A stretch of 64,000 bases of DNA from assembly GCA_025531455.1 (NCBI GenBank), contig JAMYHL010000092.1, positions 1 through 64,000 on the forward strand, written 5' to 3'. The position numbers and the translations under genes were made by a program. The first letter of the stretch is position 1. Each line of letters starts with the position of its first letter. The notes beneath the pieces were generated by a model. That model was given only the letters and a program-made list of their open reading frames with translations. It was not told the DNA's origin and did not search any database. Below are positions 44,501 to 64,000 of this stretch, one piece after another. Source of the stretch: Apiotrichum sp. Y4204. Lineage: Eukaryota > Basidiomycota > Tremellomycetes > Trichosporonales > Trichosporonaceae.

Positions 44501-44913
44501 GGGATGTTACGGATCTGCTGTTGCAACACCCTCAATACGCGTCCTTGGCCGGCATACCGTACGCGGTATCCTTGGAGCCAACGGATACCGACTCGGCAGC
44601 AATCATCGCCCACTTCCAAGCCGTGGGAGCGGCCTTTGCTGCGACGCCAACGCTCATCGACAGAATCTCCCGCGACGCACGTGTTGCCGACCTTCTAGTC
44701 GCCTTGCGCGCCTTGCCCACGGGTACCGCCCTCCAAGCTGCCCAGCAGCTCGCCGACGCACCGACCTACAGTGTCGCCGTATTTGCATGTGCCCTGGCAG
44801 AGGGTTCGAACAGCGGAGAATGGCCGCAGCCCTGGAGGGACGTGGTGTGGAAGCTCCGGAAGCACCCGTCCGAGGATGTCCGTGTGCGTGCGTTCAGCAT
44901 ATTTATGATATGA
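41536..44913 (+). CDS. Large intronless HEAT-like alpha-solenoid protein
   Basis: 1125 residues in one unbroken exon, in a window where most long genes have several introns. The whole protein is predicted as repeated helix pairs of HEAT/ARM type; no catalytic motif, signal peptide or membrane segment is seen. Segments such as VFEAALDDAPRARRRLITAA and KRHPLIVINTLVNVLK have helix-turn-helix spacing. The pattern resembles, from memory, large solenoid proteins of actinobacteria, raising the possibility of acquisition from bacteria; this is an inference only. By eye the middle (about 42100-43700) uses more A/T-ending codons than neighbouring genes. It is flanked by tRNA-Ser(CGA) at 40.7 kb and tRNA-Ala(AGC) at 45.4 kb. 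Likely a scaffold for protein-protein interaction. The ATG at 41536 is the first in frame. Confidence 0.85.
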   Translation: MFAVSEAVTELLARVEPLSASRRDREVTRYARSLSPSDAAAVVAELEARGGVYPVRLAGLVAVASRNLEWITKAIGSTDSNTFRIAIGCSIRHPDRVPVPDAVFEAALDDAPRARRRLITAAGALSQRPQLADKIFERVRAEWGDRAAAGVLASCSAELVEQHLTHFVELVDWRFITKRHPLIVINTLVNVLKPSADTWDEVVKHFPRPLTPELLNRLKELAYSPEDLDYRFLEWLIPKKDRPPPESFDAEAWLDHECVGSGCRHITRDILRKLLRSKSPKLDKFLGIKPTGEWLFQYYLLMLPMQERKAVCDFAFERGAAFDILKHGQLNNTFLGCLPKETAASLIRPHVRGDTDFMEALSRKRFLPPDEVREDFLTGTRRSDGDDRYLAWKYFLANFLLWEENDSDKFTELLQLFVERTRNDRAEVRAGFITDLSYTRASLWTPKARAILDQLRQDAIDDDVDTLYLTQTVSHLFRSFPTNPTIVNWALGWFQDPSQKDNAPHGGWNIPSMTQSNITLKDAKALYEILKPSLDDAISNKDWGFVLSVASSLGPRGVPLRGLYEAVRQVYELADNDFKLSALFRWLTPAKTQGGRAGIAFEIDPSSALLPSMAEIITLQRTDLIGKVLKGPLISHLSNGNNIWMVPTAAKKAVQCWTSSQMGEYCDYLERHANDEDITTKKRAEYIRGFGIVPGGAARAVSWVDSDDVPLSEAGLYALGGSESHLSVLLSYGADDRARIASPRVYETARLMRPSEVEPIVATMLTTSGSKVVTRKAALGLVARLLPISRQVECVSSLMSNKHTHRDIRVLCVETTLQTLLNTPKSLEILRVASIDPEEDVRTAVVSTEVSVELYPAYVKFVSALLHSPYSDVVKYAAGWFNRGPLDVSSDHMEKFDLPAIRRRLAHLAITNLESTTHDAYVYREELWCIALAGAISLANNDAQALCEAIDTLIRDQASDPGDMLKYRRIEAIVDSLANNARTSRRICRDVTDLLLQHPQYASLAGIPYAVSLEPTDTDSAAIIAHFQAVGAAFAATPTLIDRISRDARVADLLVALRALPTGTALQAAQQLADAPTYSVAVFACALAEGSNSGEWPQPWRDVVWKLRKHPSEDVRVRAFSIFMI

Positions 44914-45356
44914 TGGATGATATCTGTCTGTGAGAAGTCAAATACGCAAGGAAGTCTGGACAGTATCAAGTGTTGTACCCTCCATGCAGCGATGTGACAT
45001 TTTCTGGTTGGCTCCAAGTATCGTGTATTCTGTACACTCACGAGCACAGACATGGCGCGGCCGCGGAGTCGGTCCTCAAGGTGGGAGCTGCACGCCGACA
45101 AGGTGACGCGCTAGACGGCCGTAAGCACCTGTCCATTCTGCCCATTCTGCGGCCCCGCAAACGTCAGTTCTCCGAAACGGACGATTCCAGGCACGTCTTG
45201 CACCACGCGGCTTAGAGGAGCGTCTGCGACAGTCCGTTCTCGGAAACTCGGAAAGGGCTTGTCTTCACTATACCGTCGCCGCGTCGCCGCGTCGCCGCTT
45301 CTCCCTCCTACTCGTCGCGCTCGACGCGGAGACGTGGCCCGAATCCGTCCCCCGTC
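44914..45356. other. 3' flank of the solenoid gene up to tRNA-Ala
   Basis: 443 bases; short tandem CGTCGCCG-type repeats near 45283-45300 precede the tRNA. No gene. Confidence 0.5.
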
Positions 45357-45445
45357 GGGCGTGTAGCTCAGTTGGTAGAGCGTGTCATTAGCAGGATCCA
45401 ACTCCTATCTTGACAAGGTCTTTGGTTCGATTCCTAACTCGTCCA
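45357..45445 (+). tRNA. tRNA-Ala (anticodon AGC), with intron
   Basis: Acceptor GGGCGTG/CTCGTCC with the G3:U70 pair that is the identity element of tRNA-Ala, then TA, D arm GCTC-AGTTGGTA-GAGC, anticodon stem TGTCA/TGACA, anticodon AGC at 45390-45392, and discriminator A at 45445. A 16-nt intron (45394-45409) follows base 37. The T stem (TTTGG/CCTAA) has one T-T mismatch, and position 6/67 is also T-T. The gene looks functional but the T-stem mismatch leaves some doubt. Confidence 0.87.
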
Positions 45446-46224
45446 GCGCATAGCGTTCCTTTTTCACTGGCGCGAGAGGTATCGTTTGTAGAGGAGTGAA
45501 AGATGCAAGTATGCGAAAGATGGTGGAGTGGTTAAATGATACGGTAGATGGGACGATGGGCGGTGAATCGGAGGATGAATGTCTTAATGTGGAGTGTGCC
45601 GCTTCGAGGTGGGCTGGTGTGGTTAGCGCTGTTTCACGACGGCTCCCTGGGAATTTTGATAACAGATTGAGCGGCTAGTAAAGGTCAACGAAGCCCTGCA
45701 GGCGGACACGCCCGTTCGCGTCGGTCCCGGTCAGTCCATCCGGAAAAGCAACTGTGTGGGGTGAGTTGACTGGCATCAGGCGACGGTTGACCCCTCCTCT
45801 GGATGCGTTGCTTTCACCAGAGCACGCAAAAGAGGGGATTATTACGTCTAACCCATGAATCAAGGTGCAACCCCCCGTACGGAGATCGCATTGGCTGCAA
45901 GTGCACTATGAGTGCGTCGGCATCGGGTGGAATCTAGCCCATAGACCGCTGTCGCCCATAGACCGCTGTCCCCTGATCAGATACTGACCAAGTTCCGTGT
46001 GTCACTCGGTGGCACGTGTTAGCGCCGGGTTTGATAACCATGCTCTGGGGACTTGATAACGAGGCTGAGCGGTTAGCAACATGCGATATAATGAAACCCT
46101 GAAGTGGGCAGGTCCGCTGATATCGTGAGTTGGCACATTTTGATCAGTGCGTTTCAGTGGTGACGCATACGGCAGCGATACATCTAGGTGCCAGTATGGC
46201 GGGTATACAAATAGATCGACACTT
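45446..46224. other. Intergenic with diverged direct repeats
   Basis: Contains a short perfect direct repeat (CCCATAGACCGCTGTC, about 45939-45970). It also has two diverged copies of an approximately 80-base segment (45620-45705 and 46018-46110) sharing TTGATAAC, TGAGCGG and GAAACCCTG/GAAGCCCTG. No gene. Could be decayed mobile-element ends near a tRNA gene. Confidence 0.4.
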
Positions 46225-48414
46225 TTAGCTACGCGAGACGTCGCGGCCGAAGAGCTTGACCTTGAGCCAGTCCGTGAGAACGAGGGCACGGTTGCGGATA
46301 GAGTACAGGGTGGACTGGGTGTGAGCGGGGTACAGAAACATCGTCCAGTTTCACTTTTACTCACAACATACGCAGAGCGCCAGAACAGCATGGCGGCGCC
46401 ACCGCCGGACGCCACGTTGCCGTTGAAGAGGGGCAGGTCAGCGATGGCCTTTTCGGAACCAATGTAGGCGAGCGAGCCTTGGTGCGAGTAGTGGAAGGGC
46501 GTGGGGCGGGCAGCACGGTTGAGCTTCTTAAGCACCGAGTCAATCTCGCCTGCCGGAGCATCGCCCTTGGCGCGGAGCTCCGCGACCTCACGGGTGTAGC
46601 GGAACTTGTTGCCGCGACGGTTGAATTCCTTGGCGAGGTACTTGCCCTGCTGGGAGGCGACCTGAGCGGTGGGGGCGTACTGGGTGGCAGTGCAGTCACC
46701 AAGCGCATAGATGCCCTCAGCGCCAAGCATGCGGAGATGGTCGTCGACGACGAGACCGCGGCGGACGTTCTGAGTGTGGGGCAGCTTGGACATCAGGTTG
46801 CGGGTAAGCGGGCGCGAGGTGTTGCCGGTAGCCCAAACGAGAAGACCGTAGGGGATCTCACGGATCTCCTTGTTGGCATCCTGGACGACGACCGAGTCGG
46901 CCTTGACGTCCTTGACCATGGTGCGGGTGAGGATGTCAATCTTGTTCTCCTTGAACGTGGACTCGGTGTACTGAATGAGCTGCTTGGAGAAGGCCGGGAG
47001 CACGTTAGGGAGAGCCTCGATAAGGGTAATGCGCAGGCGGCCAGCAATCTCGGGGTACCACTTCTGGAGGTCGTCGTGCAGGAAGTCGTGCAGCTCGCCG
47101 GCGTACTCGACACCAGTCGGGCCACCACCAACAACGACCATGTGCATCAGACGGTCGATCTCCTCATCCGGCTGGTTCTTGAACGCGGCCGTCTCGATGC
47201 AGTCCATGAGCCTCTGGCGGATCTTGTCTGCGTCCCAGAGCTCCTTCAGGAAGCACGCGTGCTCTGCGACACCCTTCATGCCGAAGGTCTGGTTCTCGCA
47301 ACCAACAGCGTAGACGAGGTAGTCGTAGTGGATAGTTACCGAGCCGGACGAGCCCTGGATATCAGACACATCTGACTGTTAGCCTCATCTCGACGAACGC
47401 GGAGCTCACCCTGGAAGGTAATCGTCTTGTTGATCGGGTCGACGTCCTGCGCCTCCGCCTCGTACACCTGCACAGCGCGCTTCTTATGGCGGGTGATAAA
47501 GCGGGTCGGCTGGATAAGCGAGCGGGCCTCAAGCGTGCCGACGGTGACCGACGGCAGCAGCGGGGTGAAGAGGAAGTAGTTGCGGGGGGAGATGACAATG
47601 ACGTTGAACTCGTCCGTGTCGAGGTTCTTGAGGAACGAGGTCGCGCCCCAGCCCGAGCCGAGAACCACCATCGTGGGCTTCTGGGGGTCCTGCGGCTCCT
47701 GGTCCGGCGGGTGTGTCTCCGTCTGGGTCACTTATCGTTAGCCTCGCGCCAAATGTCGCACGTCCGCAAAAATTCCACACCGCCAACCTTATCTGCGACG
47801 TGGTTACTCACCGTAGAAGAATGCGGCAGTGGCACCAATGAAGACGACAACGGTGAGGCGGACCGTGTTGCGGACGAACCGGCCGAAGCGTCCCCTCCGG
47901 GGCTGTAAGGGTCAATGCACTGCGTTGCGCAACGCTGGAGGGGTATCGAATACTCACCTGCTCCGGGCCAGCCGCCGACGCATATCCGCGGAAGGCGCCG
48001 ATGGGAGCGCGAGCCGGGCTCAACGCCACCTGGCGAGACGCGGCAGCGAGGAGAGGCGACGACACGACGCGCGCACGGGGCGCGAGCGACGAGCGTGCGA
48101 GAAGAGGGGCACGAGCTAAATGCAAGTCAAGAAAGGTAGAGATCGGCGTCGGGATTTGCAAGGGCGGAGAACCATGTCAGCGATCTGTACTGGCGATCAA
48201 AGAACACGTCTGGATTAGGGAGGTGGCAACCGTGCACGCTACGGGATGGGGTCTTATGCAATGCAGATCACGCTGATCTGATCTGCATCCATCTGTTAAG
48301 ATGCTCATCTCACAGAGCTCTGTTCGCTGGCGAACACGGTCACACCGACCACAGATCCACAGAGCAGTCGAACAGGACACCAGAAAGCGACTTACCGAGC
48401 TGGCGGAGAGCCAT
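46225..48414 (-). CDS. Type II (alternative) NADH dehydrogenase, mitochondrial
   Basis: 561 residues from six exons: 48396-48414, 47958-48115, 47812-47902, 47410-47730, 46365-47371 and 46225-46314. Single-subunit, rotenone-insensitive NADH:ubiquinone oxidoreductase of the inner mitochondrial membrane (Nde1/Ndi1 group), with no proton pumping. The N-terminus ([20 protein letters not shown]) is Arg/Leu-rich like a presequence. A single hydrophobic stretch ([15 protein letters not shown]) precedes the FAD motif [17 protein letters not shown]. The second dinucleotide motif is [16 protein letters not shown] (NADH). The C-terminal segments [16 protein letters not shown] and [15 protein letters not shown] are diagnostic. 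External or internal orientation cannot be decided from sequence alone. The 19-nt first exon was found by frame and by the GTAAGT donor. Confidence 0.94.
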
Positions 48415-49630
48415 GGTGGAAGGAGTGGGAGTCCTGAGAATAGTGAGTGACGTTGCGATGGAGGATATGGGGGATAAAAATGGCTCGCTGGATACATGTG
48501 CGGAGCGCGCACCATACTGCGCTTCCCGGCCGCCGCTGTCATTGCCTCGAACATCGCCTCATTACACCCAGCCATACACCCCTTCAACTCCACTCCACTC
48601 GACGACGACGATAGCCATCCACTGCATCGACTACCGCGTCACGTGCAGGGCGAACTAACTCGGAAAATCTGAGCGTTCGAGACCCTGTAGGGAGTCCTGC
48701 TCGCCTGATCGAACGGAGTGCGACGGGAAGGGCAGGGCAACGGTGATTCGTCACCGCACATAGCACGCGCTGCCGCTGCGCCCTGTCGCACCCCGCACTG
48801 CGCAGGTGGCAACGCAGGTGTGCACAGAGATACGCCGAGAAGGCCGGATGGTAGCGAGGGCTGCAAAGCTGCAACCGCAGAGCCGCAGAGCCGCGGAGTG
48901 GAGCGACTAGCGGACATGAAAACGAAAAACGCCATCCACCACGCGGTGACTGGGCGACACGGTGCGAAGCAACGACGACTCACCTGAAATTATATATGGC
49001 AGATTAGGGCCCGAATGCGGAGTGGTGCTGAGAGAACCAAACCCAGAAGCGAGAAGAAGAAAGTGAAAGCGATGGGAGAGAAAGAAACGAAGAGATCCAG
49101 AGACGAAGTCACGAGTCGCGGGCTAAGAGATTGTGTCTGGTATGACGGTTACGCTATATGTATATCCTGTTTTTCTAAAAACACGCACGAGCGGCTGGTA
49201 CACTCTGTACTCTGTCCGTCTGACGGGGCTGTCTCACTCTGTACTACTCGGTACTCGGTCTCGATCTGCTCCAGAGAAATGATAACGACGAGTGCCAGTC
49301 TCTCTACTCGACACATGATTCGATGGGGCAGCTCGGGCTACATTCCAACTGCCGCCGGGTGCACGCCGTCCAAGGCAGCCAAGCAGAGCTCTCCACAGGC
49401 GACAGGGTTCAACAGGTGGGGCTGGCGGTGTAAGCGACCCTGGCATCTGGCCGCTGGCGCTTGCAGGCTGCTCTCCCCCCTCAACCTGATGTACTGTATG
49501 CATCGATGGAAGCCTTACCGCTCTGCTTCTGCGCCTTCTGCACTCTCAGACTCTGCAAGAGGGGGGATTATCCTTGTATCTCCGTCGACATTGCTCCCAA
49601 GCTTTGATAGCACCATGCAGCTGCATTCTC

Positions 49631-49666
<36 letters not shown>

Positions 49667-50583
49667 CCGACTGTGGGTCCTGGGTGCTCTGGGAGAGTGA
49701 AGGGTGAAAAAAAAAAGAGCAAAAAATCAGAAAAAATTGCTCCAAAAAACAGAGGACCGGAAAACTTTCGTCATAACTGGACCTCGTACCTCGGACGTTT
49801 CTGAATTTCTTGAGTACCAGCGCACGATTGCACAGCACACCGCTGGAGATGTTGATTTGAGATGTACGCAACTGACCCTCGCCTTGCACCCGATGCCTTA
49901 CCGCGGCCCGAGTGGGGGGAAGCGGGACAGTCGCGGTCCCGGCCAACCCCAGTTGCAGCAGCAGCAGAATCATGTTGTCATCGGGAGGTATGGACGATAC
50001 GATATACGATACGACCCGTCATCGCTTATCCCCATCTCCACCGCTGGATTGTACGGAAAGTGGGCACACCGGCAGAGCAGCAACCGGTGGGTTCGGACCG
50101 ACAGAGTTCTGTGATCTGTGAAGTCCGTCCACAAGGTGTCAACTGCAGAAATGACGTGTCTACACGCCTCATCCTCTCTCTACGGATCTACGGAAAAAAG
50201 GGGGGATCTGAGTAGGCTGAGAGAGAAGAAACCCTGGATTCCCATTTCAAGAGCAAAGCGGCGTTGGCCAGCAACAAGCATGGCTGCATTGGCTGCACCC
50301 AGCCAGCCAGCTGCACGCGCGCGTACGCGAGCCAGCCAGATGCGGCCATTTCTAACCTCCACCTACCTATGCTAGCTATGCTGCCTGCACTCCATGTGGT
50401 ATGCAGCAACAGCATTCCCGCCAAGGGCAGGGGAGGGTTGTCACTCAATGGACAGGCGGTACTGCATGCGTAGCACCAACCTCCCAGCGGTGGCGAGCAA
50501 CTAGATGATCACTCGTTTGCCCCATCCTCCATCGTCACTGGCAGTCATCGCGCTTTGCATTGCCCGTCGCTGCACCACCCACG
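48415..50583. other. Intergenic, contains a long poly(A) tract
   Basis: About 2.17 kb between the leftward NADH dehydrogenase and the rightward phosphatase gene. It holds a 33-base A run (49632-49664) followed by A-rich sequence to 49757, and repeated TACTCTGTACTC motifs around 49200-49255. No ORF has support. The poly(A) could be a microsatellite or the 3' end of a retro-inserted sequence on the plus strand; no flanking target-site duplication was recognised. Confidence 0.45.
49632..49664 (+). repeat. Poly(A) tract, 33 nt
   Basis: Uninterrupted run of A, preceded by GCAGCTGCATTCTCC and followed by TGCCGACTG. A second A-rich segment (49707-49757) lies 43 bases on. Confidence 0.95.
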
Positions 50584-52469
50584 ATGCCTGAAGTTATCGC
50601 CGGCCTCTTCCCCGGCAGCCGCCGCTCGTTCGAGCTCCCCCACCACGACAGCGACAGCCCCGCGCGCCGCGCTCTTGGGTCCGAGACGCGTAAATTCACC
50701 CTCAAGCGTCTTATCAAGAGCTACTGGAGCGACTGGATCCTCATCCTCTTCCTCTGGTAAGTGTCTGTCCTGAGTAAATGAGCATGGCGTGCATGTCCGC
50801 AGTATCAACAAGATTCTGGGCCACGTCGCTGGATTCCGCGTCGGCAACCTGTGTTCCATCTTACCCGTACTCGTGCTCGGAGGAGGGACTCGCACGATGG
50901 GGATGGAATGTGTGGTCCGGGGCGTTGGCTTCGGAGCAGCAGAGTACTACAAGAACACGACACGACTCTCAACTCGCAACAGCTACAGCTTCTGTCGTGT
51001 CACGATACTGCTTATCCCCACTCCATTACGACTCTGGCTGCAGAGCGGACCAAGGATGTCACCGCCTTGACCTCGTGCCTCGGCCCCTAGGGCCCTCCCG
51101 TGATACGGGGAAGGACAACGCCAAGTGGTGATCTCGTGCTCTCCCTCTCTCTCGAGCACTCTCGGTTTCCCTTGCGTCCACCCACCTCGGGTGGACACGA
51201 GACCCGCACTCCGAATCGGAAGCGCAGAACTCGGGATCGGTCTTCATCTGTTAACCGGGTTCCGATCATCGGAACAGATCATGAGATCTTCCCTGTCTTG
51301 TTGATCCGTTGATCAGGATAAGCAACCTGATTGAACGATGGCCCCCATCCATCGGAATCTCGTCGCCCATGCGTTCCGCAGGTGTTGTCTAACATGTCTC
51401 GAGCTGCTGTCTCATGTCTCCCCCGTGATTCTTGCGTGGCACAGCTGACCTCATCGCAGGGGTGTTCTTGCTATACTGAACCGCTCCGGTGGCCACAAGC
51501 GTGAATTCTCCCTCAAGGACATTTCTATCCAGCACACGTTTGCCGTGCACGAGCGCGTCCCTTCCGGGTGAGTATCCACTGCTAGCACCGAGAGCTGATG
51601 ACAGTCTCCTCGCCATCGTCTCGTTCTTTATCCCCGCTGGATGCCTGCTGCTCATAGCCCTGGTCGTCGCTCGCAATGCATGGGACGTCCACAACTCGTT
51701 CTGCGGCCTGGCCATGGCTTGGACCATGAGCGGCGTTGTCACCCAGATCATCAAGGTGCGTAGCTACGGGTGACCGGGTACCGATAATTGGGACGACGAT
51801 CTGACAAGCAGATGACGGTTGGCCGCCCTCGCCCCGACCTTATCAACCGTTGTCTTCCCCGTGCGGGGGCTAAAGACTCGCCCGTCTACGGCCTCAGCAC
51901 AGTCGAGATCTGCACCACGACTGATATGATGCGTCTTAATGACGGCTTCAAGGTAGGAACAGGTCTGCAGCCCTTACTGATCTCAGTCCTTCCCCAGTGG
52001 CCACTCGTCGCTCGCGTTTGCCGGCCTCGGCTTCCTCACCTTCTACCTTGCTGGCAAGATGCACCTGTGGGACCAGTACGGGAACCGCAACCGTGCGTGG
52101 TTTGCGCTTTCGCCTCTCCTGGGCAGCGCCGTCGTCGCCATCTCGCGCACCATGGACAACCGCCACCACTGGCAGGACGTGCTCGTGGGCTCAACCCTGG
52201 GTTTCTTCATTGGTGCGTGCAACTCCCACTCTTCTGCTCACTCCCCAGCCTTTATCGCGTACCGCACGTACTTCCCCGCGCTGAGGCACCCGGCATGCCA
52301 CCTCCCGCTTCTCCCGCGCCCGAGCAGGTCGGAAATTGCTGAAGCGGCCGAGGCCGAGGCCGACTTTGAGGCCGGTGCTGCCGGCACTTCGGGCTTCCGC
52401 CTCCTCCCCGACGGCTCGGGCATCCCCCGCGAGAGCGAGGACGACTGGCGCCCCAACAACGGCAACTAG
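50584..52469 (+). CDS. PAP2-type lipid phosphate phosphatase (DPP1/LPP-like)
   Basis: 339 residues from exons 50584-50756, 51460-51567, 51605-51755, 51812-51952, 51987-52212 and 52249-52469. Integral-membrane phosphatase of phosphatidic acid, diacylglycerol pyrophosphate and related lipids. All three catalytic motifs are visible: KMTVGRPRPDL (K-x6-RP), FPSGHSS (PSGH) and SRTMDNRHHWQDV (SR-x5-H-x3-D). About six hydrophobic segments surround them. The N-terminus (about 1-45) is hydrophilic and the C-terminal tail acidic. Intron 1 (50757-51459) is 703 nt, far longer than its 33-60 nt neighbours. It contains an alternative acceptor at 50803 leading into an exon-like stretch (INKILGHVAGFR) resembling the start of exon 2, but that path meets a stop. 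A hairpin lies at 51177-51197 inside it. Confidence 0.9.
51177..51197. other. Perfect 8-bp hairpin in the long intron
   Basis: GTCCACCC-ACCTC-GGGTGGAC: an 8-bp stem and 5-nt loop inside intron 1 of the lipid phosphatase gene. It may be a folded intron element or the trace of an insertion. Confidence 0.7.
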
Positions 52470-53218
52470 GACGGGCGTCGCGGGGACGGGGACCCCGACG
52501 CGGTGTCGCTGCGAGACCTTTCGGCGCGCGAAGAGAGTGGCCGTGGTCCGTGATCTGTGATCGCGCCGTGTGCGCAATCCTGATCCGTGATGCGGGTACT
52601 CGCTTGCAGCGGTTGAAGATGATGTGATGTGACACCCCCCGACGCTGTGCTGGCCGCACGTGCCCGCGACGTACGTAACGAAGCATAGACGACAGAGACA
52701 GAAGACAAGATGTGATGAAGGATATGAAGCGGTATTGTGTCTGAGCAGCTGTATCGGACTCCTGTTTCCGCACTGTTGAGTTACATACCTGTCAGTCTTT
52801 CAAGCAACTGACAGAGGGGGAGCAAGATGTGATGCATATAGACCTCCAAAATCGAGGTTGAACAACTGTATCGCTTCTGCCTGTATCGCTTCTGCTTTTG
52901 AAAAGCTGGAACAACGAGACGCCTCCTGAAACCGACCGAAATCTCAGTTCATCTCAGCGTGAGACCTCCACCTCCACATTCTGTCGTACCAAATTCCAGT
53001 GGGCGGCTGGCCATCCATCCCGCTTGCCATCCCACTTCCCATCCGTTCATCTGCAAGTCTGTCAATCTTGCTTCCACATATCACCCCCTTGACGACGCCG
53101 TCCGCGTCCCCCCTATCTCCTTCGCTGCGTTTGACGGCCACAGCAACACCGGCAGCGAGGGTGGCAGCGTCATCGGCATTAGTATCGTGCTCACGCTGCG
53201 AGCCACCTCTTCTGCGAT
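52470..53218. other. Promoter region of the chromodomain gene
   Basis: 749 bases with no supportable gene. Pyrimidine-rich and CATC-rich sequence (52960-53200) precedes the ATG at 53219. Confidence 0.5.
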
Positions 53219-53890
53219 ATGGCATTCATCGAGGAGATTGTGGGGGATCCCATCCCCCCTGTCGACGTCCAGTCTGCGGAAGGATTGGAGGCCGTCAACG
53301 GCGTGGATACAACGGAGTCCATTGACAGCGGGAGCACCATCATGAACGGCGGCGGGGATCAAGCGGACGGGCACCAAGTCGACGAAGAGACCCTCAAGGG
53401 TGCTATCAAGGTGGGGGATACTCGCCTCGAGGAGATGGACGCGGAGAACTTCTTGCCCGCTCGGATAGGCAACGTCGCGAATATTGATATCGAGATGGAC
53501 AGTGGCCCTGGTGATGTGCATCCCGCGGGCGAGGAACGCGATGAGTCGAAGGACCATGCCGCCAAGCTGGGAGAGACTTCTGCAACAGGGCAGATGGAGT
53601 ACGCCAAAACGGAAACCTCAGGGCAGACGCAGGACGTAGAAGTCATCGCTGCGCTCAATAGTGCAATACTCGCCGTTCCCAAGGCCGAAGACGACGGTCG
53701 CAAAGTCGCTGTGGAAGTCGATGTCGCTACGGTGGTCGAAATCGATGTCGAGGAAGGCCGCCACGATGGACACGACGACGTGGAAGTAGGCGCTGATCAG
53801 GGCGCTGATCTGCCGATCCCGAAGGAAGAGCGTGGGAATTCCGTGGAGGAGCCTATCGTCATTGATGAGGATGAGGAGGAAGAAGAGGAA

Positions 53891-53922
<32 letters not shown>

Positions 53923-55821
53923 CGAGGTGCGAGAGGAGGAAGCGGTGCAAGAGGAGGAAGAGCAGGACGAGATGAAGTCCGCGTACGAGATCAAGTCTGA
54001 CTCTGATGACGACTACGAGGAGCCCGAGAACTTCTCTGACCACGATGTTGACGGCCAAGTCGCGAGAAATCGTGAGGGCAGGAAACGCGCGTCGCCTCGG
54101 AAAAAGGAACCCATCACCGATGATGACGGAGATGAGGATGTGGTCATCACCGACTTCAAACCCGGCGAGCCCTCTCCCGAGGTCATCGTCATAGACGACT
54201 CGAGTGACTATGAACCCGATTCGGACAAAAAGCCGAAACGCGAGGCGAAGGCTGGCGGCGTCGAGTACGAAAACACTGTCCTGCATCCGCTCTTCTTCGC
54301 AGAAGAGAAAGTCAAGGCTGACACTCACTGGGTGTACCTCTTCTTCCGCTTCTGCGTTGAGCGGCACAAGATGTACGAGCGCCGCGAGGCCGGTGTCCCC
54401 CGTGACCAGCTTACCACCGACGAGACAATGCGCAGTAGGCATATCGGCAACGTCTTTCGCGAGCTGGACCCTGGGTCCATCATGATGAAGGACATCATAA
54501 TCAACAATGGCGAGCAGTCTCGGGACGAAGTGTGCTGTGAGTCCGTTGGCATGACCTAAAGCTCCCTTTCTCTCCACTAACACCCAGTCCGTGTATTCTT
54601 GTACACTGCCTTCTACAACAAGAACACGTGGAGCATCCTGTGCGACGCGGCAACAGGCGACGTGCCCACATGGAAGCACTTTGAACACGACATGCCAGCC
54701 ATGGAGGCTGCGCTTGGCAAGGCCGTCGCGGAGGGCACCGGCTTGTATCAGGGCGGCTTCCAGCAGGTGCCGCCGACAATCTACTTTGACCCGCTCAACG
54801 ACCGCAACCGGCAGAAGTCGATTGCCAACTACGCCGCGAGTCTGCGTCTCGTGCTCGCCATGATGCAGGCTGGGTTGCCCGAAAAGCTATCGGAATGCAA
54901 GTACGCCGTGGACGCGAGCAATGTCCTGCAGACGTTCCCGACACTTGGCGGCTTCCTCAGTCTGAATATTCTCTGCTATTTGAACGACACAGTCTTCACA
55001 TGGCTCTACCGCGACTTTGCGACCTGCGGCCCGGGGTCGCGATACTATCTGCAGCGAATCTTTGGCGAGCGGGTGATCAACTCGACGACAATGGAGGACG
55101 CGGGCATGAAATGGCTCGCCGATCACCAGTGGCGCTACTACGCGCGCTTGGGGTTGGATCCACCCCACGAGTGGCGCAACGGCTTGAGGCCGGGTATGCG
55201 CGTGCTGGATATCGAGAACGCGCTCTGCTGGGCGCACCGCTACGTGAACGCGTACGAGAAGAACGGGACAGGCAGCCTGGCTGACCTGCCGAATCCCGAG
55301 TTTGACCCAGCACTCACCGAGCACTGTTCAGAACCCGCATGGTGTCCCGAGGAGAAGTATGCGGCCAACTCGTCCCAGCCGTTCTGGCAGGATGCCGCGG
55401 AGTTTGCGCGCCTCGCGGAGCTGGAGGAGGATGTCTACGAGGTGGAGAAGGTGATTGGGCGGCACAAGAAGGCGTTCCGCGTGCGCTGGACTGGATGGCC
55501 GCCAGAGGACGATACATACGAGAGTGAGAAGACGCTAAAAGAGGGTTCGCGCGAGGTGAGTACAAGCTGTTTTTCTCTGCATTTTGCTGACGGAAGGCTC
55601 TTGAGGAGTGGACCAAGTGGGAGAACCGCGTATGGGACACGATCGAGCGTATCCGTAAAACGATGAAGCCAAAGCCGAAGGAGAAGTCGCAGGGGGCCGT
55701 GCACGACTCGCCGACGAGATCGCGATCTAAATCCGGGAAGCGCACGCATGAGCCCTCGACCTCGCCCGAGCAGCAGCATAAGCGCCTGCGCACCACCCGT
55801 GCAGGCGTCGCCTGCGACTAG
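53219..55821 (+). CDS. 5-hmdU DNA kinase helical-domain protein fused to a chromodomain
   Basis: 836 residues from exons 53219-54536, 54588-55555 and 55597-55821. The N-terminal ~340 residues are acidic and disordered, with a long Glu tract (about 217-240). Residues ~355-700 form the helical domain known in Pfam as HMUDK_hel: HPLFFAEEKVKADTHW, then the hallmark FFRFCVERHKMYERREAG and GNVFRELDPG, later YNKNTWSILCDA, GGFLSLNILCYLND, ATCGPGSRYYLQRIFG, LADHQWRYYARLG and the late VLDIENALCWAHRY. That family occurs with enzymes that hypermodify thymine in phage DNA. No P-loop kinase domain is present here. Residues ~721-770 are a chromodomain (DVYEVEKVIG, FRVRWTGWPPEDDTYES); Tyr723, Trp740 and Trp743 could form the methyl-lysine cage. 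The C-terminus is basic (KRTHEPSTSPEQQHKRLRTT). Inferred role: chromatin-bound DNA-base processing or recognition. Confidence 0.85.
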
Positions 55822-56216
55822 TCACGAGGAGCGAGGAGGAGGTGTGTTGGATCTGATACTGTGATTTCTAGATGCTTGCTGTATGTGATGTGTGTATAGT
55901 CTTGGGCCGGATGCCCGACTTTGCGAACCTGATTGTTGTCTGTTGTTTTGTTGGGGCTTCTTACTCCTCGTACTGGCGTCAATGTTCACCGTCCAGGCCA
56001 TCTGCTTAGATATATTCTCGACACGCTGACCGGTCAAAATGAACGGCGTCTCAGCATCGCCTGTCTCCTCCGACGGGACGTGGGGCCGTCTCCGCTGAAG
56101 CTGCCTTTATGTATTATCTGACTGGTTCGCATGTAATCGTCTGCGATTATGTGATAGGGAGTAGCATTACGCACAAGCGTGCTGTGCTCACGTGTACGGC
56201 GTGGTTCTGGCCATGC

Positions 56217-56270
56217 TGGGCACCATATGGCGGATACCATATGGTACATGGCCATATACATGGTACATGG
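56217..56270. repeat. Cluster of palindromic CATATGG/GTACATGG motifs
   Basis: ACCATATGG occurs at about 56222-56230 and again at about 56238-56246. They are followed by TACATGGCCATATACATGG and GTACATGG. Several units are self-complementary (CCATATGG, CATATG), so the block can form small cruciforms or serve as multiple E-box-like (CANNTG) sites. Confidence 0.6.
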
Positions 56271-56405
56271 TGCAGGGTGCGAAAACACGGTCACATGGGT
56301 TTATGGGTACAGAGCATCAGACGAGCATGTCGTGGCCGCGTAAGGCCAGAGAAAGCCGTCCAAATTCCGTAATACAATGCCAAGACATATCGGCCGCTCA
56401 CTCTA

Positions 56406-56414
56406 ATCAGATAA
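56406..56414 (+). promoter_or_regulatory. Iron-GATA motif (ATCAGATAA), distal
   Basis: Matches ATCWGATAA and lies within the 14-mer TCTAATCAGATAAC that is identical to the right arm of the palindrome before the CFEM-like gene (30445-30458). About 790 bp upstream of the siderophore transporter. Confidence 0.6.
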
Positions 56415-57041
56415 CACCACATGATCAGGGCCGGACGCAGGATCGCAGGATAAAGAAATGGCGCCTCGCCGAGGTCATCCCGACAAACCCACCCCATGTT
56501 GCTGGGGTACTGTGCGGTGCATGTGTACAGGTCAGTGCCAGCAGTGACGTCGAGTGCCGGCATCCGAGCGCATCCGAGGTCTGAGCTCCAAGTCCTGGAT
56601 CGTGGTTGTGTCGGCCGACCAGGACAGTCGGCCGATTAAACTGTTTCACCTCACCTTTGTTCAAGAAGCTTCTATTGACCAGGACCGTCGCCTAGCTTAC
56701 TGTTCAGGACGCTTGGCAACGCCTGTTCCGCTGGAGATGTCCTTGACACAAACACAGACGACATCTCTCCCGGAGCCTTCCTCGGAACTACTACATTACT
56801 CCTCGGAGCTACCATACCACTGGGCCTGTTCGAGCTGTTAGTCACTCGCCTCCGAGAGGACATAGGCATCAATCAGGCCTGAATCGAGCGGGCCAGAACA
56901 CTTTTTACAGCTGTGTACCTGCCGAAGTCTTGGCATTGTCGGCCGAATAACCGTCACTTATGTACAACAGTCGACGACTTGTACTGAAACAGACAGGGCA
57001 GGAGACCTGGGCAGAACGGCGAGGGACTGCGATTTTTTTTT

Positions 57042-57050
57042 TTATCAGAT
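57042..57050 (-). promoter_or_regulatory. Iron-GATA motif (TTATCAGAT), proximal
   Basis: Reverse complement of ATCTGATAA, an exact ATCWGATAA match, 147 bp before the transporter ATG and just after a T tract. Confidence 0.65.
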
Positions 57051-57196
57051 ATGGCTCTGCTCCAACTCGTCACTCTTCTCCGTTCCGAGGGGGCTGCATG
57101 ACACTTTTTTTTCCTCGCCCTTGCTGCCTTGCAGCGTGGTTTGGTTATAAAGCTGCAAGCGGGTAGTTGTCCAGGTTCTCGCCCGCCCTACTCACC

Positions 57197-59169
57197 ATGA
57201 CTCCGCTGTACGCCGACCCCGCCAACGCGGTCGACGTCAAGCAAACCGTGTCCCGCGATGCGCCTGTCGTTGTTGTCGAGGAGAAGTCGCCCGGTGTGCG
57301 TCGCATCGAGGCTATTTCCAGCTGCTTCACCACCTGGCACAAGTGGATGCTCTATGTCTCCATCTTCCTGGTCGCATGTGAGCTTTTTCTTTCGCCACAG
57401 TGCTAACAGGTAGACGCGTACGGTCTCGACGGCCAGGTGCGCTACACGTACCAGTCGTTTGCGACGAACAGCTGGGGCCAGCTCGCCCTCATCTCGACTG
57501 TCAACGTCGTAACCGCCGTCGTGGCTGCCGCGATCCAGCCCCCTCTCGCCAAGATCTCCGACTACTGGGGCCGTATCTCCCTTCTCGTCATCTCCGTCAT
57601 CTTCTATGTCGTCGGCACAATTGTCCAAGCTGCGGCTAAAGGGGTAGCCACCTATGCTGGTGGTGCTGTCATTTATCAGGTTGGCAGCTCAGCCATCATT
57701 CGTAAGTCACAGTTGTCAGTTGAGGACACGAGCTTATCACCAGTTCTTGTTGTTATTCTCATCGCCGACACCACGTCGCTGCGCAACCGTCTCGTCTTCG
57801 TAGGTGTGAACTGGCTGGCCCAACTGACCTCTAGTCGTACATCCCAGCGTTGCCGTTCATCATCAACTCCTGGGTCTCGGGCAACGTCACTGATGCGGTC
57901 ATTAAGCACTCGACCTGGCGGTGGGGTATTGGCATGTGGGCAATCATCTTCCCCGTGCTCACGATCCCTCTCTTCTTCTGTCTCATCTCGGCCGAGGTGC
58001 GCGCCAACCGCGCCGGCCTGCTCCATGACGTGCCCAACCCCTACAAGCAGATTTTCAGCGGTTCGCTCTGGCTCGACTTCTTCTGGCAGGCAGATGTCGT
58101 CGGCATGCTCTTCCTCGCCGCGACCATCGCCCTGATCCTCCTTCCCTTCACGCTTGCCGGTGGATCCGTCACCCCGGGCGGTATCGCGGCCAGCTTCAAG
58201 ACAGCCAAGATCATTGCGCCACTGGTCGTTGGTGTGGTGATTGCCCTGCCATTCTTCATCGTCTGGGAGGCAAAGTTCGCCCGCCACCCCCTCCTTCCCT
58301 TCCGCGTATTCCGCAAGCTGGCAGTCTGCTGCGCCATCGGCATTGCAGTCACGCTCAACATGGCGTGGTACACCCAGGGCGACTACCTCTTCACGACGCT
58401 GCAGGTCGCGTTCGGCAAGGACGTCATGACGTCCACGCGCGTCGCCAATATCTACTCGTTCGTCTCGGTCATTGTCGGAGTCATCCTCGGCCTGTGCGTC
58501 CGCTGGATCCGCCGCGTCAAGCCCTTTGTCATCGTCGGTGGTCTCCTCTTCATCCTCGCTTTCGGCCTTCTTATCCGGTACCGCGGCGGCCACTCCACAA
58601 GCGACTTTGCCGGTCTTGTCGCCGCCGAAGTTGTGCTTGGCATTGCCGGCGGTTTTGTCCCCTACACGACCCAAGCGGCGATCCAGGCTGAAGTGGCGCA
58701 CGAACGCACCGCACTCGTCACAGGTCTCTTCCTGGCGGCATACAACATCGGCTCGGGTATCGGCAACACGATCGCGGGTGGTATCTGGACGAACACGATG
58801 CCAGGGCACATCCTGACCAACCTGAACAACGCTGGAGTCGCCGACGCGGAAACTGTCGCTGTCGAAGCGTACGGATCGCCTCTTACCTGGATTCTCGAGA
58901 ACCCCCTCGGCACCCCCGCCCGCGAGGCGGTCGACCTTGCGTTCCGCCAGGTCCAGCGATACCTCACCATTGCGGGAATCTCGCTCTCGTGTCTGCTCGT
59001 CATCTTTGCGCTCGGTCTCAAGAACCGCCGCCTTGGAGATACCCAGTCGCTTGATAACATCGAGAAGAACTCGGTCCTTCCGCCCGACTCGGACGGAGAC
59101 TCACACTCGGACCACACCGCGTCTGCCGTTGCCGATCCGCACAAGGCGGCCCCCACCCAGCGCGTTTAG
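57197..59169 (+). CDS. Siderophore-iron transporter (MFS, Arn/Sit/Mir group)
   Basis: 619 residues from exons 57197-57377, 57414-57701, 57744-57799 and 57835-59169. Major-facilitator permease with about 14 hydrophobic segments, importing ferric siderophores across the plasma membrane with protons. Family marks: a hydrophilic N-tail followed by YAYGLDGQVRYTYQSFA (loop after TM1), the motif A-like KISDYWGRISLLV, STWRWGIGMWAI, and the late GAGGFVP-like region (GIAGGFVPYTTQAAIQAEVAHERTALVTGL). The last loop and C-tail carry NPLGTPAREAVDLAFRQVQRYLTIAG, typical of siderophore transporters. The start codon gives a normal N-tail, and the first intron uses acceptor GGTAG to keep YAYG in frame. Two iron-GATA motifs upstream agree with repression by iron. 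The specific siderophore cannot be told. Confidence 0.92.
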
Positions 59170-59995
59170 GGAGCAGATTTACGTATCTATTAAAACCTCT
59201 ATAACTACAGGATACGTATCTGCCTAGGGTTTTTTACAGTATATCTTCCGCATGTATATATCACGATGACGCCGGGTGGAAGGGCGGAGCTTGGAGGAGG
59301 CACGCGAGTGTGCTATGGCTGTTGTCTCTCTTGCGGATTGGCACACATTTTTGGTGGTTCGAGCTGCCTGAAAGACATTCAACGCCGAGGCCGACAGCCA
59401 TCTAGTGGACCAAGTGCGTTGCATAGAAGTAAACGATGTGCCGAGTGAGCAGGCGCCCAGGCACCCAAATGCCACCAGCACACAGATGATTGCATCTTTC
59501 AACCAGAATGATCAGGACAGCACTCGCAAAGGAGCCCAATTGGACATGATGGAGCTTCTCCATCCTCATCGTGATCTCCCCTCCTCCAAAACAAGACGTG
59601 AACACGTATCCGTACTCTCGCCATGTACTTGCAGTATGCCGCCGGGGGTTGGTCCATTTACCTGCTGAGGTACATTTGAACGGACGAAGAAGGAAATAGT
59701 TTGATCTCTCCCACCCACTTGCATCTTGGCCGTGGTGCACAGATCGACTACCTACGAGCTTCTTCTGTCTCGTACCCTAGCGGTCCTATCGATTCCCCAC
59801 TCATATCTACAACAGTCGTACGCGAGAAACCAGAACTAGAAAACCAAAAATGTACCCGAAGAACCGAAGCCTACAACCACAAGCCCACACCCTGCAGCAA
59901 CACGCAGCGGCGCTGCCCCCCTCTCCTTGCTTACAACGCGCCCTGACAATCATAAACCGAGTCGTGAACCGTATGGCGCCGTGTATGTCATTTGT
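59170..59995. other. Convergent 3' flanks
   Basis: 826 bases between the transporter (+) and the bHLH gene (-). Open frames are short and unconvincing. Confidence 0.5.
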
Positions 59996-61869
59996 TTAGG
60001 CCTTGCCGTTGATGTTCTCCACGTGCTCCCATTCCGCCTGGGACGCCACCCGGAACTTGTTGTTGGCCGGGACCTGGCCGACCTTGAGGGTAGCGACACC
60101 GCTGGTCGTGTCACGCATTTGGACGTCTTCCTCTTCTTCTTCGTTCTCTTCTTCATCGCCCTGTACGCTCCCGGAATCGCCGCGGACCAGGGCAGGCGGC
60201 GGAGGCACACCTGTAGGGTTGCTGGCTGGAGTCGAGCCAAAGGCGATACCTGCTTGACGGAGACTGTCCTCCAAGTAGCCAATATAAGATACTGCCTTGC
60301 GCAGCACAACGGCCTTGGAATCTGTGGAAATAATGTCCGGCAGTGCTGATCGCAGTTGATTGAAGCCGTTATTGATGGACCTATAGTGGTGTCAGCATAC
60401 GATGTCGTGTTGACCCTAAACAGGAGGGGAATGGAATCGAAAAGGGCCCCAGTGACCACCCACTGGGGGCTCCCACGGGGCCACAGGCGGACGAGGTCGC
60501 CACAAAATGTGACAACCTTGCCTGGCGATGACCACAGCCTATCACAAAGTCAAGTGTCACAGTGGGAGGCGCCGCGTGTTGCGGACTATTATTTTATTCC
60601 GCCCCTGAGGGATGCCCGAGCACTTGCACATGTCATGATGGTCTCTGAGCTGGTGGCCCCGGGCATGTGGCAACATGTGAGGCAGGGAATCAGAGGGAAA
60701 AGGTAGGGCATGGGGCTTGAAGAGAATGAGAGACAACAGGAGGCATGTACTCACTCGCGCCGCTTTTGTTCCGAAAGCAAGTGTGCCACTCGGCGGTTCT
60801 GGCCACCCCCACCCCCACTTCCAGGGCCAGAACTTCCACCAGAGGCGGCAGGTGTCTGAGGTGTTTGGGCACCTGCCCAGTCACCGTTGTCAGACATGGC
60901 CCCATTGGGCCCGTACCGGCTGAGAGCCGACGCAGCCGAGTGCGAGCGGGCACGGCCAGCATGCAGGCTCGAGTAGCTGTGGTTGCTGTGCGGGGGCGAC
61001 ATGTACTGATCGTGGCTGTAGCCGTTCATCGCGTGGAGCGGGGGGGACGTGCGGTCACTCCCTGGGTGGTTTTGCGTCGGACTTTGATCCGGACGGTACG
61101 TGGAGTTGGGTCCGGAGCCGCTGCCACCGATCGTGAGACCAAGACTGTGACCACGTCCGCCAGCTGGAGGCGGTGCGCTGCCACTGGAACCACTGGGACC
61201 TTCGTAAGAGTACGAGGGGCGGAGACCGCCTCCACCGAATGACGAATAAGGTTTCGGACTGGTAGCACGGGAACCGCCGGGCGACAGCGCGGCGGATGGA
61301 AGACCAGGCGATAGAGCAGCTGGAGGAGGACCCATGCTACCACCTGGTGCTGATGTCGGAGTCACAGGGCCGCCCGACGAAGCCGACGACAGGCTCGCAA
61401 AGGATGGAAGGTGGTATCCCCGGTCATTGTGGCTGTGGTACCGTTCACTCTGAGTCCGGGGAAGGGACGGCCGGCGATCGTGCCACATGCTCTGCGGAGA
61501 ATCTCTTACGTCCAGGTTACGTTGCTCACGATCGCGAGGGTCACGCCGCTCGTGAGGCACGTGAAGCGGGGCAGCCGAGTTTGGAGGGGGCAGGTAGATG
61601 CGCGACGCGTCTTCATGATTGGAAGCAGCCTGGGCGGCGCTGACGCTGTGTCGCCGGGGCGGGTATGGATGGGCGCGGTAGGACGACAAGGACGGCTGTG
61701 GCGATCGCGAAGCGGAGGGAGAAACGAGCGGGCGTCCACTGTCAGACGACCGATCCGCGGGATGATGATGGTTCTGATGACGAGGGGATGAGTTGGGGAT
61801 GGGAATGTTGTTGGTCGAATCGGTCGGCGATCTCGATGACCGTTGCCTAGCCTCTGTTGCGTAAGACAT
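59996..61869 (-). CDS. bHLH transcription factor
   Basis: 499 residues from exons 60755-61869 and 59996-60380. The N-terminal 355 residues are disordered, rich in Ser, Pro, Gly and His. The DNA-binding region follows: basic part RRVAHLLSEQKRRE with the His-Glu-Arg positions of class B factors that read CACGTG, helix 1 SINNGFNQLRSALPDI, loop, and helix 2 VVLRKAVSYIGYLEDSLRQAG. The tail has an acidic Glu-rich stretch (DEEENEEEEED) and ends NINGKA. It most resembles the Mlx/Ino4-like subset, from memory. The 374-nt intron interrupts the codon for the last basic-region Glu. The intron contains a CCCCAGTG/CACTGGGG hairpin. Target genes cannot be inferred; CANNTG elements in the neighbouring transporter promoter are suggestive only. 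Confidence 0.88.
60447..60468. other. 8-bp hairpin in the bHLH intron
   Basis: CCCCAGTG (60447-60454), six unpaired bases, then CACTGGGG (60461-60468). It lies inside the unusually long intron of the bHLH gene. Confidence 0.6.
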
Positions 61870-63804
61870 TGGGAGGCGAGATTGTGTGTCGAAATCTGTG
61901 AGAAACGACTTTTGTATATCAGAGATTGACTGATGAAATGATCAAGCTCGACAAGCACGGCTGATCAAGACTGCCGTCAGAGGGCACGGGCTGTGGATTC
62001 TCGTGGAGGCGATGGGAGACAGAGAAGGGTGCTCTCGTGATGGCGGTGGAATCTGTCTGTCTGGAAGCGCAATGTCAGGCGTCAAGGCGTGTTGGAAAAT
62101 GTAAAGTGCCACAGACAACGCGATCAGATTGCAGCGATGTTCAAGTGGGGGGTGCACGGGCCTCGAGAGCGGCCACACAGGATCTGTGGAGGACTCGGCC
62201 AGAAGGACGTAGACTGCAGGGAGCGGGGTCCCAGGGTGGACGAGTAAAGGATCCAGGAGGGTTCGCGAGGGGATGTCGAACCGGCGGCTGGATGGGGGTT
62301 GTGGTTGTCGTGGGTCGGACCGCGGACCGCGTGCCTTTGCAAGACGTGGTATGGGTGATCGAGGTGTGCGATCCTGCTCAGGCGCGACAATGTCAACTGA
62401 CGAACCCCAGGGTGCCTTTGGCTGCTTGAACGGACGTCGGGAAACCGGCACTGGCAGTGATCCAGAGTCGACGAGTCGGAGTTAAAAGTGGCGTCGCGGG
62501 TATCGCCGGGTGTCAGGCTTGCGAGGTGTGGAGAATGTGAGAACACAATGTCGGTGGGAAAGAGCTGTCGCAGTCACTCTTGACGAACCAGCCGTCGAAG
62601 TCCACAGGCGATGCGAGCCAGCCGCGGGTCTAGGACGTCAAGGAGGGGAGAAGTTGGTAGTATGGAGACTGTCGGAACTCGCTGTCGATGCGGGCAGATG
62701 TGATAGCGATGCGTCCAGAACGGTGTTCTGCACTGTCGAGGGAGACAAGTCTATGCGAAGACAGAGATGCCCACTGATGAGTGGAAGACACGCCGGGGGA
62801 ATGGGGAACAACGCAGTCGCCCGGAAGTTGTATATGAACTGCCCAGTTGGGAGGTCGGGATGCCGGGGACGTGACGTATCGGAGTCGGAGGACAACGAGG
62901 GCAATGACAATGGTACCGAACGGGGAAGCGACGGCGATGAAAACGAGAGAGACGATGTGGATGAACGAGGAGACGATGTCTAGCCTGCGGTGTGCCCCGT
63001 CTTGCCGTGGTACTCTCCTCCTGTCGCAATGTATGTGGGTGTCTGTGTGCATGTATGTGCATGCATGTATGTGTGTGTACGGTGTGCATGTGCGCTCCGG
63101 ACGGGACTGCAGGTGATGCCCATGTGCTCAAAGCCGGAGATGTGGGGGGGACGTGGGGGTGGGCGCGCGCGCCTGATGGCCAGAGGCGTTGAAGCGAGTT
63201 GGCAAGCGGCCAAGAGGACTGACAAGGGGCAAGGCCAGAGGGGAGGGATGGTGATGCCGGGGAACAGAGGCAGAACAGACCAGGGTCTGGGTCTGGCTGC
63301 CGCCATGGTGCCGAAACGTTCAGCTGATTGGGGTCGTGGGGGGAACCAGCTTGTTAAGCGACTGCCAGACCAAAGGGGGGGCGCCTCGCGCAGATGCCCG
63401 GGATCTGAATGCCTCTTCTGGCCCTCTGTAGCCTACTCTGCGCGTGAAGGGGGAATCTTTGGCTTCGAAGCTGGCGAGCTGATGACCTGGCCAGGGAAGC
63501 GCGGAAGAGAGGACCGAGGTGTTCTTCCCATTCCGTGCTGCTGGGTGAGTGCCCAGCTTCCAGAATGCCATCCTCTGATCTGCAGCTCTTGTGCTCTGCT
63601 CTTCGCCTCTCTCTCTCCGTCCGACTCGGTAGTTGGTGAGTATCTCGAGATCGTCTCACGTACACATTCTGCTAGTCTGCCCCTCTCTCTTCTTCTGGGC
63701 CCTCCCCCTTGCGCCCTTCTCCCCCCCCCTTTCTTCCCCTCTCGCTAGTAGTGTTACTAGTGCAACAGCGATCGCTAGGCGATCACCCGAGTCTCTTTTT
63801 TAGA
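61870..63804. other. Upstream region of the bHLH gene and of a possible edge gene
   Basis: 1.9 kb. It contains a TG-rich stretch (about 63028-63095, repeated TGTATGTG/TGCATG). A CT-rich leader-like segment at 63590-63740 precedes the possible gene start at 63805. Overlapping frames of 90-250 codons on both strands look like shadow or non-coding composition. Confidence 0.45.
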
Positions 63805-64000
63805 CATGCCGCGCCCCTCCGGGCTCTCTGCCGTCCCTCCTCAGCCCTCCGCCTCGTCCAGGCGGGCCAGGGACGCCGATCGGGAATTGGCTTTGCCTCC
63901 TTCACCTGCAGCCTGCGGGGCCTCCAAACTTCCAACGTGTAAATGGGCGAATGCGCATGGGAACCTTGCCGCATCGCACCGCATCGCATCTCATAGCGGC
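63805..64000 (+). CDS. Possible gene start running off the right edge
   Basis: An ATG at 63805 (MPRPSGLSAVPPQPSASS...) opens a frame that stays open to the window end, 65 codons. It follows 150 bases of CT-rich leader-like sequence and a CTTTTTTAG tract. The N-terminus is Ser/Pro/Arg-rich, which is common in fungal proteins. No domain can be recognised, and an intron or chance open frame is possible. Confidence 0.3.

Follow-up and report, generated by a model that had tools for sequence, protein, structure and literature searches.

A phage-type HMUDK_hel domain joined to a chromodomain in a predicted protein of Apiotrichum and other basidiomycetes

What does a domain of phage thymine-modification systems do in a fungal gene that also encodes a chromodomain? 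Thymine hypermodification is known from phages, and to our knowledge nearly every established DNA mark of eukaryotes other than base J sits on cytosine or adenine. The question is raised by a gene at 53219..55821 on the forward strand of a 64,000-nucleotide stretch of Apiotrichum sp. Y4204 (assembly GCA_025531455.1, contig JAMYHL010000092.1, positions 1 to 64,000), the whole of which is called the window here. Judged by its sequence, the product is a chromatin protein that combines a bacterial- or phage-type HMUDK_hel domain with a chromodomain of the HP1/MPP8 type. We put the probability at roughly 0.5 that it flips bases while tethered to H3K9-methylated chromatin and there reads or processes uracil substituted at C5, a reading that also draws on structural models of relatives.

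The two domains of the predicted protein

The PF18723 match that identifies the HMUDK_hel domain scores 242.6 bits, where the cut-off is 25 (E 6.8e-72, profile positions 1-274 of 281), far above chance expectation. This bears out the HMUDK_hel-like core named in the original prediction, whose four quoted peptides all occur in the translation, and the link drawn there to phage thymine-hypermodification systems is supported as well. PHROG 2396, a family of unknown function, also matches the protein (E 7.1e-24). At E <= 1 the whole protein matched only two Pfam families, HMUDK_hel and the chromodomain; neither PF18724 (amino acid:DNA transferase) nor HhH-GPD appeared at that threshold, and a motif search detected no GxxxxGK[ST] P-loop in the 833 residues. 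Having no P-loop and only these two families, the fungal protein could not be filed as a 5-hydroxymethyldeoxyuridine (5-hmdU) DNA kinase. Profile searches of the PDB with ten bacterial HMUDK_hel sequences gave nothing below E 0.15, PADLOC gave one weak match for a Vanrija relative (E 0.007) and none for three other proteins, and NCBIfam returned nothing for four of five proteins, the kinase-fused fifth matching only below cut-off (best dTMP kinase, 47 versus 83.25 bits). The gene and its parts are as follows.

53219..55821 (+): gene, from ATG at 53219 to the stop ending at 55821; three predicted exons, 833 amino acids
53219..54536 (+): exon 1, open reading frame with the ATG, acidic low-complexity N-terminus and start of HMUDK_hel; donor GTGAGT at 54537
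54537-54587 (+): intron 1, 51 nt, GTGAGT..CAG
54588..55555 (+): exon 2 by splice prediction, frame kept; remaining HMUDK_hel, linker and most of the chromodomain
55556-55605 (+): intron 2, 50 nt, GTGAGT..GAG
55606..55821 (+): exon 3 by splice prediction; chromodomain C-terminal helix (EWTKWENRVWDTIERI), basic tail and stop
53855..53968 (+): acidic run, residues 213-250, 76% D/E
54080..54106 (+): RKRASPRKK, residues 288-296, like a nuclear localization signal (NLS) by pattern only
54323..55252 (+): HMUDK_hel, PF18723, residues 369-661, split by intron 1; exon search 216.2 bits, same place
55208..55228 (+): signature D647-I-E649-N650-A-L-C653 within HMUDK_hel
55436..55623 (+): chromodomain, PF00385, residues 723-768, spanning intron 2
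55436-55438, 55487-55489 and 55496-55498 (+): codons of the aromatic-cage positions Y723, W740 and W743
55624..55818 (+): last part of the chromodomain helix, then the basic C-terminal tail, with NLS-like KRLR at residue 821

The ends first proposed for the gene coincide with its ATG and stop, and the predicted exon structure is the same in a second genomic copy on contig C106, which is intact and encodes 817 amino acids. The acidic N-terminus and basic C-terminus described earlier were also recovered, with net charges of -81 over residues 1-350 and +9 over residues 780-833.

We aligned 35 fungal database rows with the window protein (P0006, P0021, P0026 and the short P0152-P0158 excluded) and defined a shared core as positions with 85% or more conservation among fungal rows and the same residue in at least 90% of 119 bacterial rows. 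Thirteen polar positions were common to both groups (R382, R389, N411, R414, D417, E437, R441, T453, N572, Q620, D647, C653 and Y658), so the polar core of prokaryotic PF18723 members is present in the fungal domain. D647 and C653 are invariant across the 36 fungal rows and reach a rounded frequency of 1.0 in the bacterial rows, and their signature is likely part of an active or binding site. Position 649 is E in every one of the 36 fungal rows and Q in all 119 bacterial rows; among phages it is E in PaMx11 gp50 and Q in LuckyBarnes and Montesquieu. The PaMx11 residue rules out E649 as a fungal invention.

The chromodomain scored 24.7 bits against PF00385 in the whole protein, 0.4 under the cut-off of 25.1, and 29.4 bits in the exon search. 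By sequence, its nearest solved chains come from the chromodomains of MPP8 and CDYL (E 0.0008 to 0.002); H3K9me3 readers are among the nearest solved relatives, and the fold is present in the model of the Vanrija relative. Tyr723, Trp740 and Trp743, proposed earlier as cage residues, stand exactly at those positions, and all three are aromatic in the 36 rows, window included: Y in 29, F in 3 and W in 4 at 723; W throughout at 740; and Y in 15, W in 7 and F in 14 at 743. This conservation supports a usable cage.

Modelled fold and prokaryotic relatives

Structural models of two relatives, one fungal and one bacterial, matched best the phage 5-phosphomethyl-dU glycinyltransferase (PUGT), tied with DUF2419 and followed by DNA glycosylases. 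In these two models HMUDK_hel is a helix-hairpin-helix (HhH) glycosylase-like, base-flipping fold; HhH-fold glycosylases flip a base out of DNA. The earlier term "helical domain" therefore held as far as the PF18723 identity goes but undersold the domain, whose modelled fold is that of HhH DNA glycosylases with a thymidine-hypermodification transferase nearest. Plain Foldseek found no significant PDB match, the whole fungal model giving mainly chromodomains, and hhalign against the PUGT profile found no match (probabilities 0.4 and 0.1%), so the link to PUGT is one of structure alone. With these models the large HMUDK_hel family gains a likely structural identity, and hence a testable mechanism.

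The same fold matches, DUF2419 and the DNA glycosylases alongside PUGT, could point to a glycosylase-like repair enzyme that removes 5-hydroxymethyluracil (5hmU), a thymine oxidation product, or another oxidised pyrimidine from H3K9-methylated chromatin. We regard this as unlikely, for the prokaryotic relatives examined lie among nucleotide- and base-modification genes, and the HhH-GPD family is missing at the Pfam threshold above.

A mixed fungal-bacterial profile matched 7526 of 8000 scored candidates, and among the 120 matches listed most were standalone proteins of 334-413 amino acids and others were kinase-fused. Bacterial neighbourhoods were taken from the best 80 of at least 558 confirmed stretches, one representative per neighbour cluster being scanned. 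By motif, 62 of these 80 loci carried a standalone HMUDK_hel and 11 a fused P-loop. The original prediction had called catalysis uncertain for want of a P-loop; the absence stands, but it says little about activity because HMUDK_hel is so often standalone in bacteria and phages. The commonest neighbours were a protein of about 281 amino acids (69 loci), Peptidase_M78/ImmA-IrrE (65), ACPS (39), an XRE regulator (38), an ACP-like protein named by eye without a Pfam match (26) and a dCTP-deaminase-like protein (26). The 281-residue neighbour had no Pfam match at E <= 0.01 (one of nine members showed a weak HisKA, E 0.23), and we term it thymidylate synthase (TS)-like because a profile search of the PDB paired it best with CMP 5-hydroxymethylase (E 0.0035). 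In 64 loci there was a further gene from a mixed HEL cluster, 5 with a P-loop; the four scanned were three MazG_C proteins and one thymidylate kinase. Loci L024-L103 display a conserved run of ACP-like, XRE, ImmA-IrrE peptidase, CMP-hydroxymethylase-like, HMUDK_hel and MazG_C genes, with ACPS and dCTP-deaminase-like genes nearby. The bacterial run resembles a regulated island for base modification or defence.

Phage relatives show comparable settings. PaMx11 encodes HMUDK_hel as gp50 (141.2 bits), a P-loop protein as gp49, TS as gp51 and ADDT as gp46 (97.1 bits); Montesquieu MONT_52 adjoins a TS/pyrimidine hydroxymethylase, and in Vibrio phage K469 TS lies a few genes from HMUDK_hel. In Brevibacterium phage LuckyBarnes (L021:6986-7840), TS gp41, two glycosyltransferases and HMUDK_hel gp38 follow one another, with no gene named kinase within the stretch examined, a possible glycosylated-hmU system. 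The matching gene of Sphaerotilus phage SN1 is labelled aGPT-Pplase clade 1, and aGPT-Pplase1 is named together with a nucleotide kinase in the SN1 paper (PMC9476957). The 5hmdU DNA kinase is described as phosphorylating 5hmdU in DNA (PMC7653180).

The nearby XRE regulator, ImmA/IrrE peptidase, TS-like and MazG_C genes also lend something to the idea that the fungal protein polices invading DNA by recognising a foreign base modification, as its bacterial relatives may do. A 5-hydroxymethyluracil kinase and a thymidylate synthase domain are reported among domains newly validated against phages (PMC13092281), a connection by function name. This role seems improbable to us: the fungal protein has only two Pfam domains at E <= 1 and no nuclease or effector part, and its chromodomain points to endogenous chromatin. 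We also know of no virus with modified thymine in these fungi.

The fungal family, its genomic copies and their constraint

The fusion runs across Basidiomycota and is not peculiar to the source genome. A first protein search gave 23 matches, namely 22 fungal-type proteins and one thymidylate-kinase plus HMUDK_hel protein, from named sources that include Vanrija, Cutaneotrichosporon, Kwoniella, Naematelia, Kockovaella and Parajaminaea. Precomputed Pfam annotation placed both domains in 19 of the 22; the chromodomain is visible in the alignment of P0006 and P0022 (the latter 23.5 bits, under cut-off), and the P0021 gene model is broken off. A second, profile search returned 32 matches (23 fungal-type, 6 bacterial-type and 3 chromodomain-only), adding Ustilago, Sporisorium, Pseudozyma, Kalmanozyma, Thecaphora, Violaceomyces and the agaricomycete Abortiporus. 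With classes and subphyla presumed from organism names, several rows being metagenome proteins that carry none, these sequences place the fusion in Tremellomycetes, Agaricomycetes and Ustilaginomycotina alike. No such fungal fusion was named among the literature titles and abstract openings listed, though full texts may mention one.

Two side observations concern the smuts. Sporisorium scitamineum P0138 bears the record name "related to SET2-Histone methyltransferase" and by Pfam holds only HMUDK_hel and a sub-threshold chromodomain, so that the name is probably a misannotation. Unlike several other smuts, Ustilago maydis is absent from the 32 second-search matches, which were no direct test of absence; this fits the loss of RNA interference, heterochromatin and DNA-methylation genes reported for it (PMC7763443).

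In a 59-row tree, 30 fungal rows fell on one side of a single branch (SH-aLRT 100). The same held for 21 fungal rows (100/100) in an unrooted 38-row tree, made after removing 9 fungal rows, 10 bacterial ones and 2 long ones from phages, and there the fungi-bacteria branch measured 1.57 changes per site. The unrooted topology is compatible with one acquisition that preceded the radiation of basidiomycetes and likewise with spread among fungi. Parajaminaea phylloscopi (P0020), which we take to be an exobasidiomycete, grouped with tremellomycete-type rows, apart from the smuts and other Ustilaginomycotina (100/100, 38-row tree), hinting at paralogy or transfer within fungi.

The source assembly (48.9 Mb, 182 contigs) holds two HMUDK_hel matches. 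Window positions 44832-64000 are colinear with C106:414500-434300 over about 19 kb, in pieces of 88.6-94.1% identity; an earlier alignment of one short stretch gave pieces of 81.6 and 90.1%. SET, Piwi, TS and dTMP kinase matches are likewise paired, and together with the colinear copies this suggests a hybrid or duplicated genome. Between the copies, Nei-Gojobori dN/dS was 0.032 for HMUDK_hel, 0.041 for the linker and 0.065 for the chromodomain, compared with 0.436 for the N-tail and 0.274 for the C-tail, the changes behind the domain values being few (in HMUDK_hel 4 nonsynonymous and 32 synonymous, in the chromodomain 2 and 7). Both domains are strongly constrained while the tails drift.

Chromodomains are common targeting parts of retrotransposons, and 7 of the 26 chromo matches in the assembly lie inside open frames of more than 1000 amino acids, which would suit an element-derived or recently captured gene without a lasting host role. 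That is very improbable here, given just two matches in 48.9 Mb, their 19-kb colinearity, purifying selection and the same fusion across subphyla; the two colinear copies rule out a mobile-element origin. Elsewhere in the window, an open reading frame of 1125 amino acids at 41536-44913 has no Pfam match at E <= 0.001.

Searches of the assembly for partner genes, made without positive controls, found no match to the kinase family PF18748, Tet_JBP, PF18724 or the bacterial TS-like protein. PF02223 gave six pieces in two places (C111, C120), which we interpret as paired genes for a cellular dTMP kinase, and thymidylate synthase occurs in two places. There were 8 Piwi and 28 SET matches, no H3K9 methyltransferase being singled out, and three PF00145 matches, two beside a chromodomain match (C128, C68) and one (C2) without a partner copy. 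The chromodomain and DNA methylase matches lie about 1 kb apart at C128:177460-178962 and C68:180034-181535, presumably consistent with a DNMT5-like chromodomain DNA methyltransferase.

This evidence bears on whether HMUDK_hel performs chemistry at all. It might be a DNA- or protein-binding scaffold, making the protein an ordinary heterochromatin component with an exotic DNA-binding part, and the missing P-loop, the failure of those searches to find another pathway gene, the long fungi-bacteria branch and the E/Q difference at 649 would all agree with that. We hold it possible but rather doubtful, since a dN/dS of 0.032 and 13 positions shared with bacteria argue for a pocket in use, and phage PaMx11 gp50 also has E at 649.

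Proposed function and comparison with known systems

The tethered base-flipping reading can be put as a sequence of steps. The fusion would have arisen once, early in Basidiomycota; the protein would be nuclear, its chromodomain binding H3K9me-type marks and tethering it to silent chromatin, where HMUDK_hel would bind DNA and flip a pyrimidine into its pocket. This pocket may recognise or chemically process a C5-substituted uracil, most likely 5-hydroxymethyluracil supplied by thymine oxidation or a further enzyme, so that the protein would be a reader, remover or modifier without its own kinase. Since tethering is a step common to the roles of reader, glycosylase and police protein, our likelihoods overlap in part. 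From a conserved phage-type thymine-modification domain beside a methyl-histone reader one would expect, in many basidiomycetes, thymine modified at C5, or the repair of such thymine, where chromatin is H3K9-methylated, and because the pairing is kept in distantly related species, it suggests an unexplored DNA-base-handling activity at silent chromatin. More speculatively, and at low odds, basidiomycete heterochromatin may carry its own modified thymine (5hmU or a derivative), written, read or removed by this protein; that would amount to a thymine-based epigenetic mark in eukaryotes beyond the base J lineage of kinetoplastids, with machinery from phages or bacteria.

Among known systems, the phage and bacterial HMUDK_hel proteins (PaMx11 gp50, the Bacillus phage SP10 5-hmdU DNA kinase, "aGPT-Pplase clade 1") share a near full-length domain, the polar core and PF18723 scores, and the viral models match structurally. 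Those examined have a P-loop kinase and/or a pyrimidine hydroxymethylase/TS-like gene fused or nearby, whereas the fungal protein lacks a kinase and carries a chromodomain together with an acidic and a basic tail. PUGT (PaMx11 gp46, PDB 8z2n, Pfam ADDT PF18724) differs in family, the fungal protein lacking a PF18724 match at E <= 1 and the profile comparisons being negative; its amino-acid transfer is not known for HMUDK_hel, which resembles it by predicted fold. The HhH DNA glycosylases and the DUF2419 queuine salvage enzyme are alike in modelled fold at 6-13% identity. On the reader side, the MPP8, CBX5/HP1 and Chp1 chromodomains resemble the fungal one in sequence (MPP8 E about 1e-3) and aromatic cage, and fit the Vanrija model with root-mean-square deviations of 1.1-1.4 at 36-42% identity; the fungal one has no chromoshadow or other known part with it and is joined to a DNA-base domain. 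Chromodomain DNA methyltransferases, such as plant CMT/ZMET2 and fungal DNMT5, likewise place a histone reader and a DNA-base enzyme fold in one chain, but their catalytic fold is unrelated, and the chemistry of the fungal protein is probably on the thymine side, not on cytosine.
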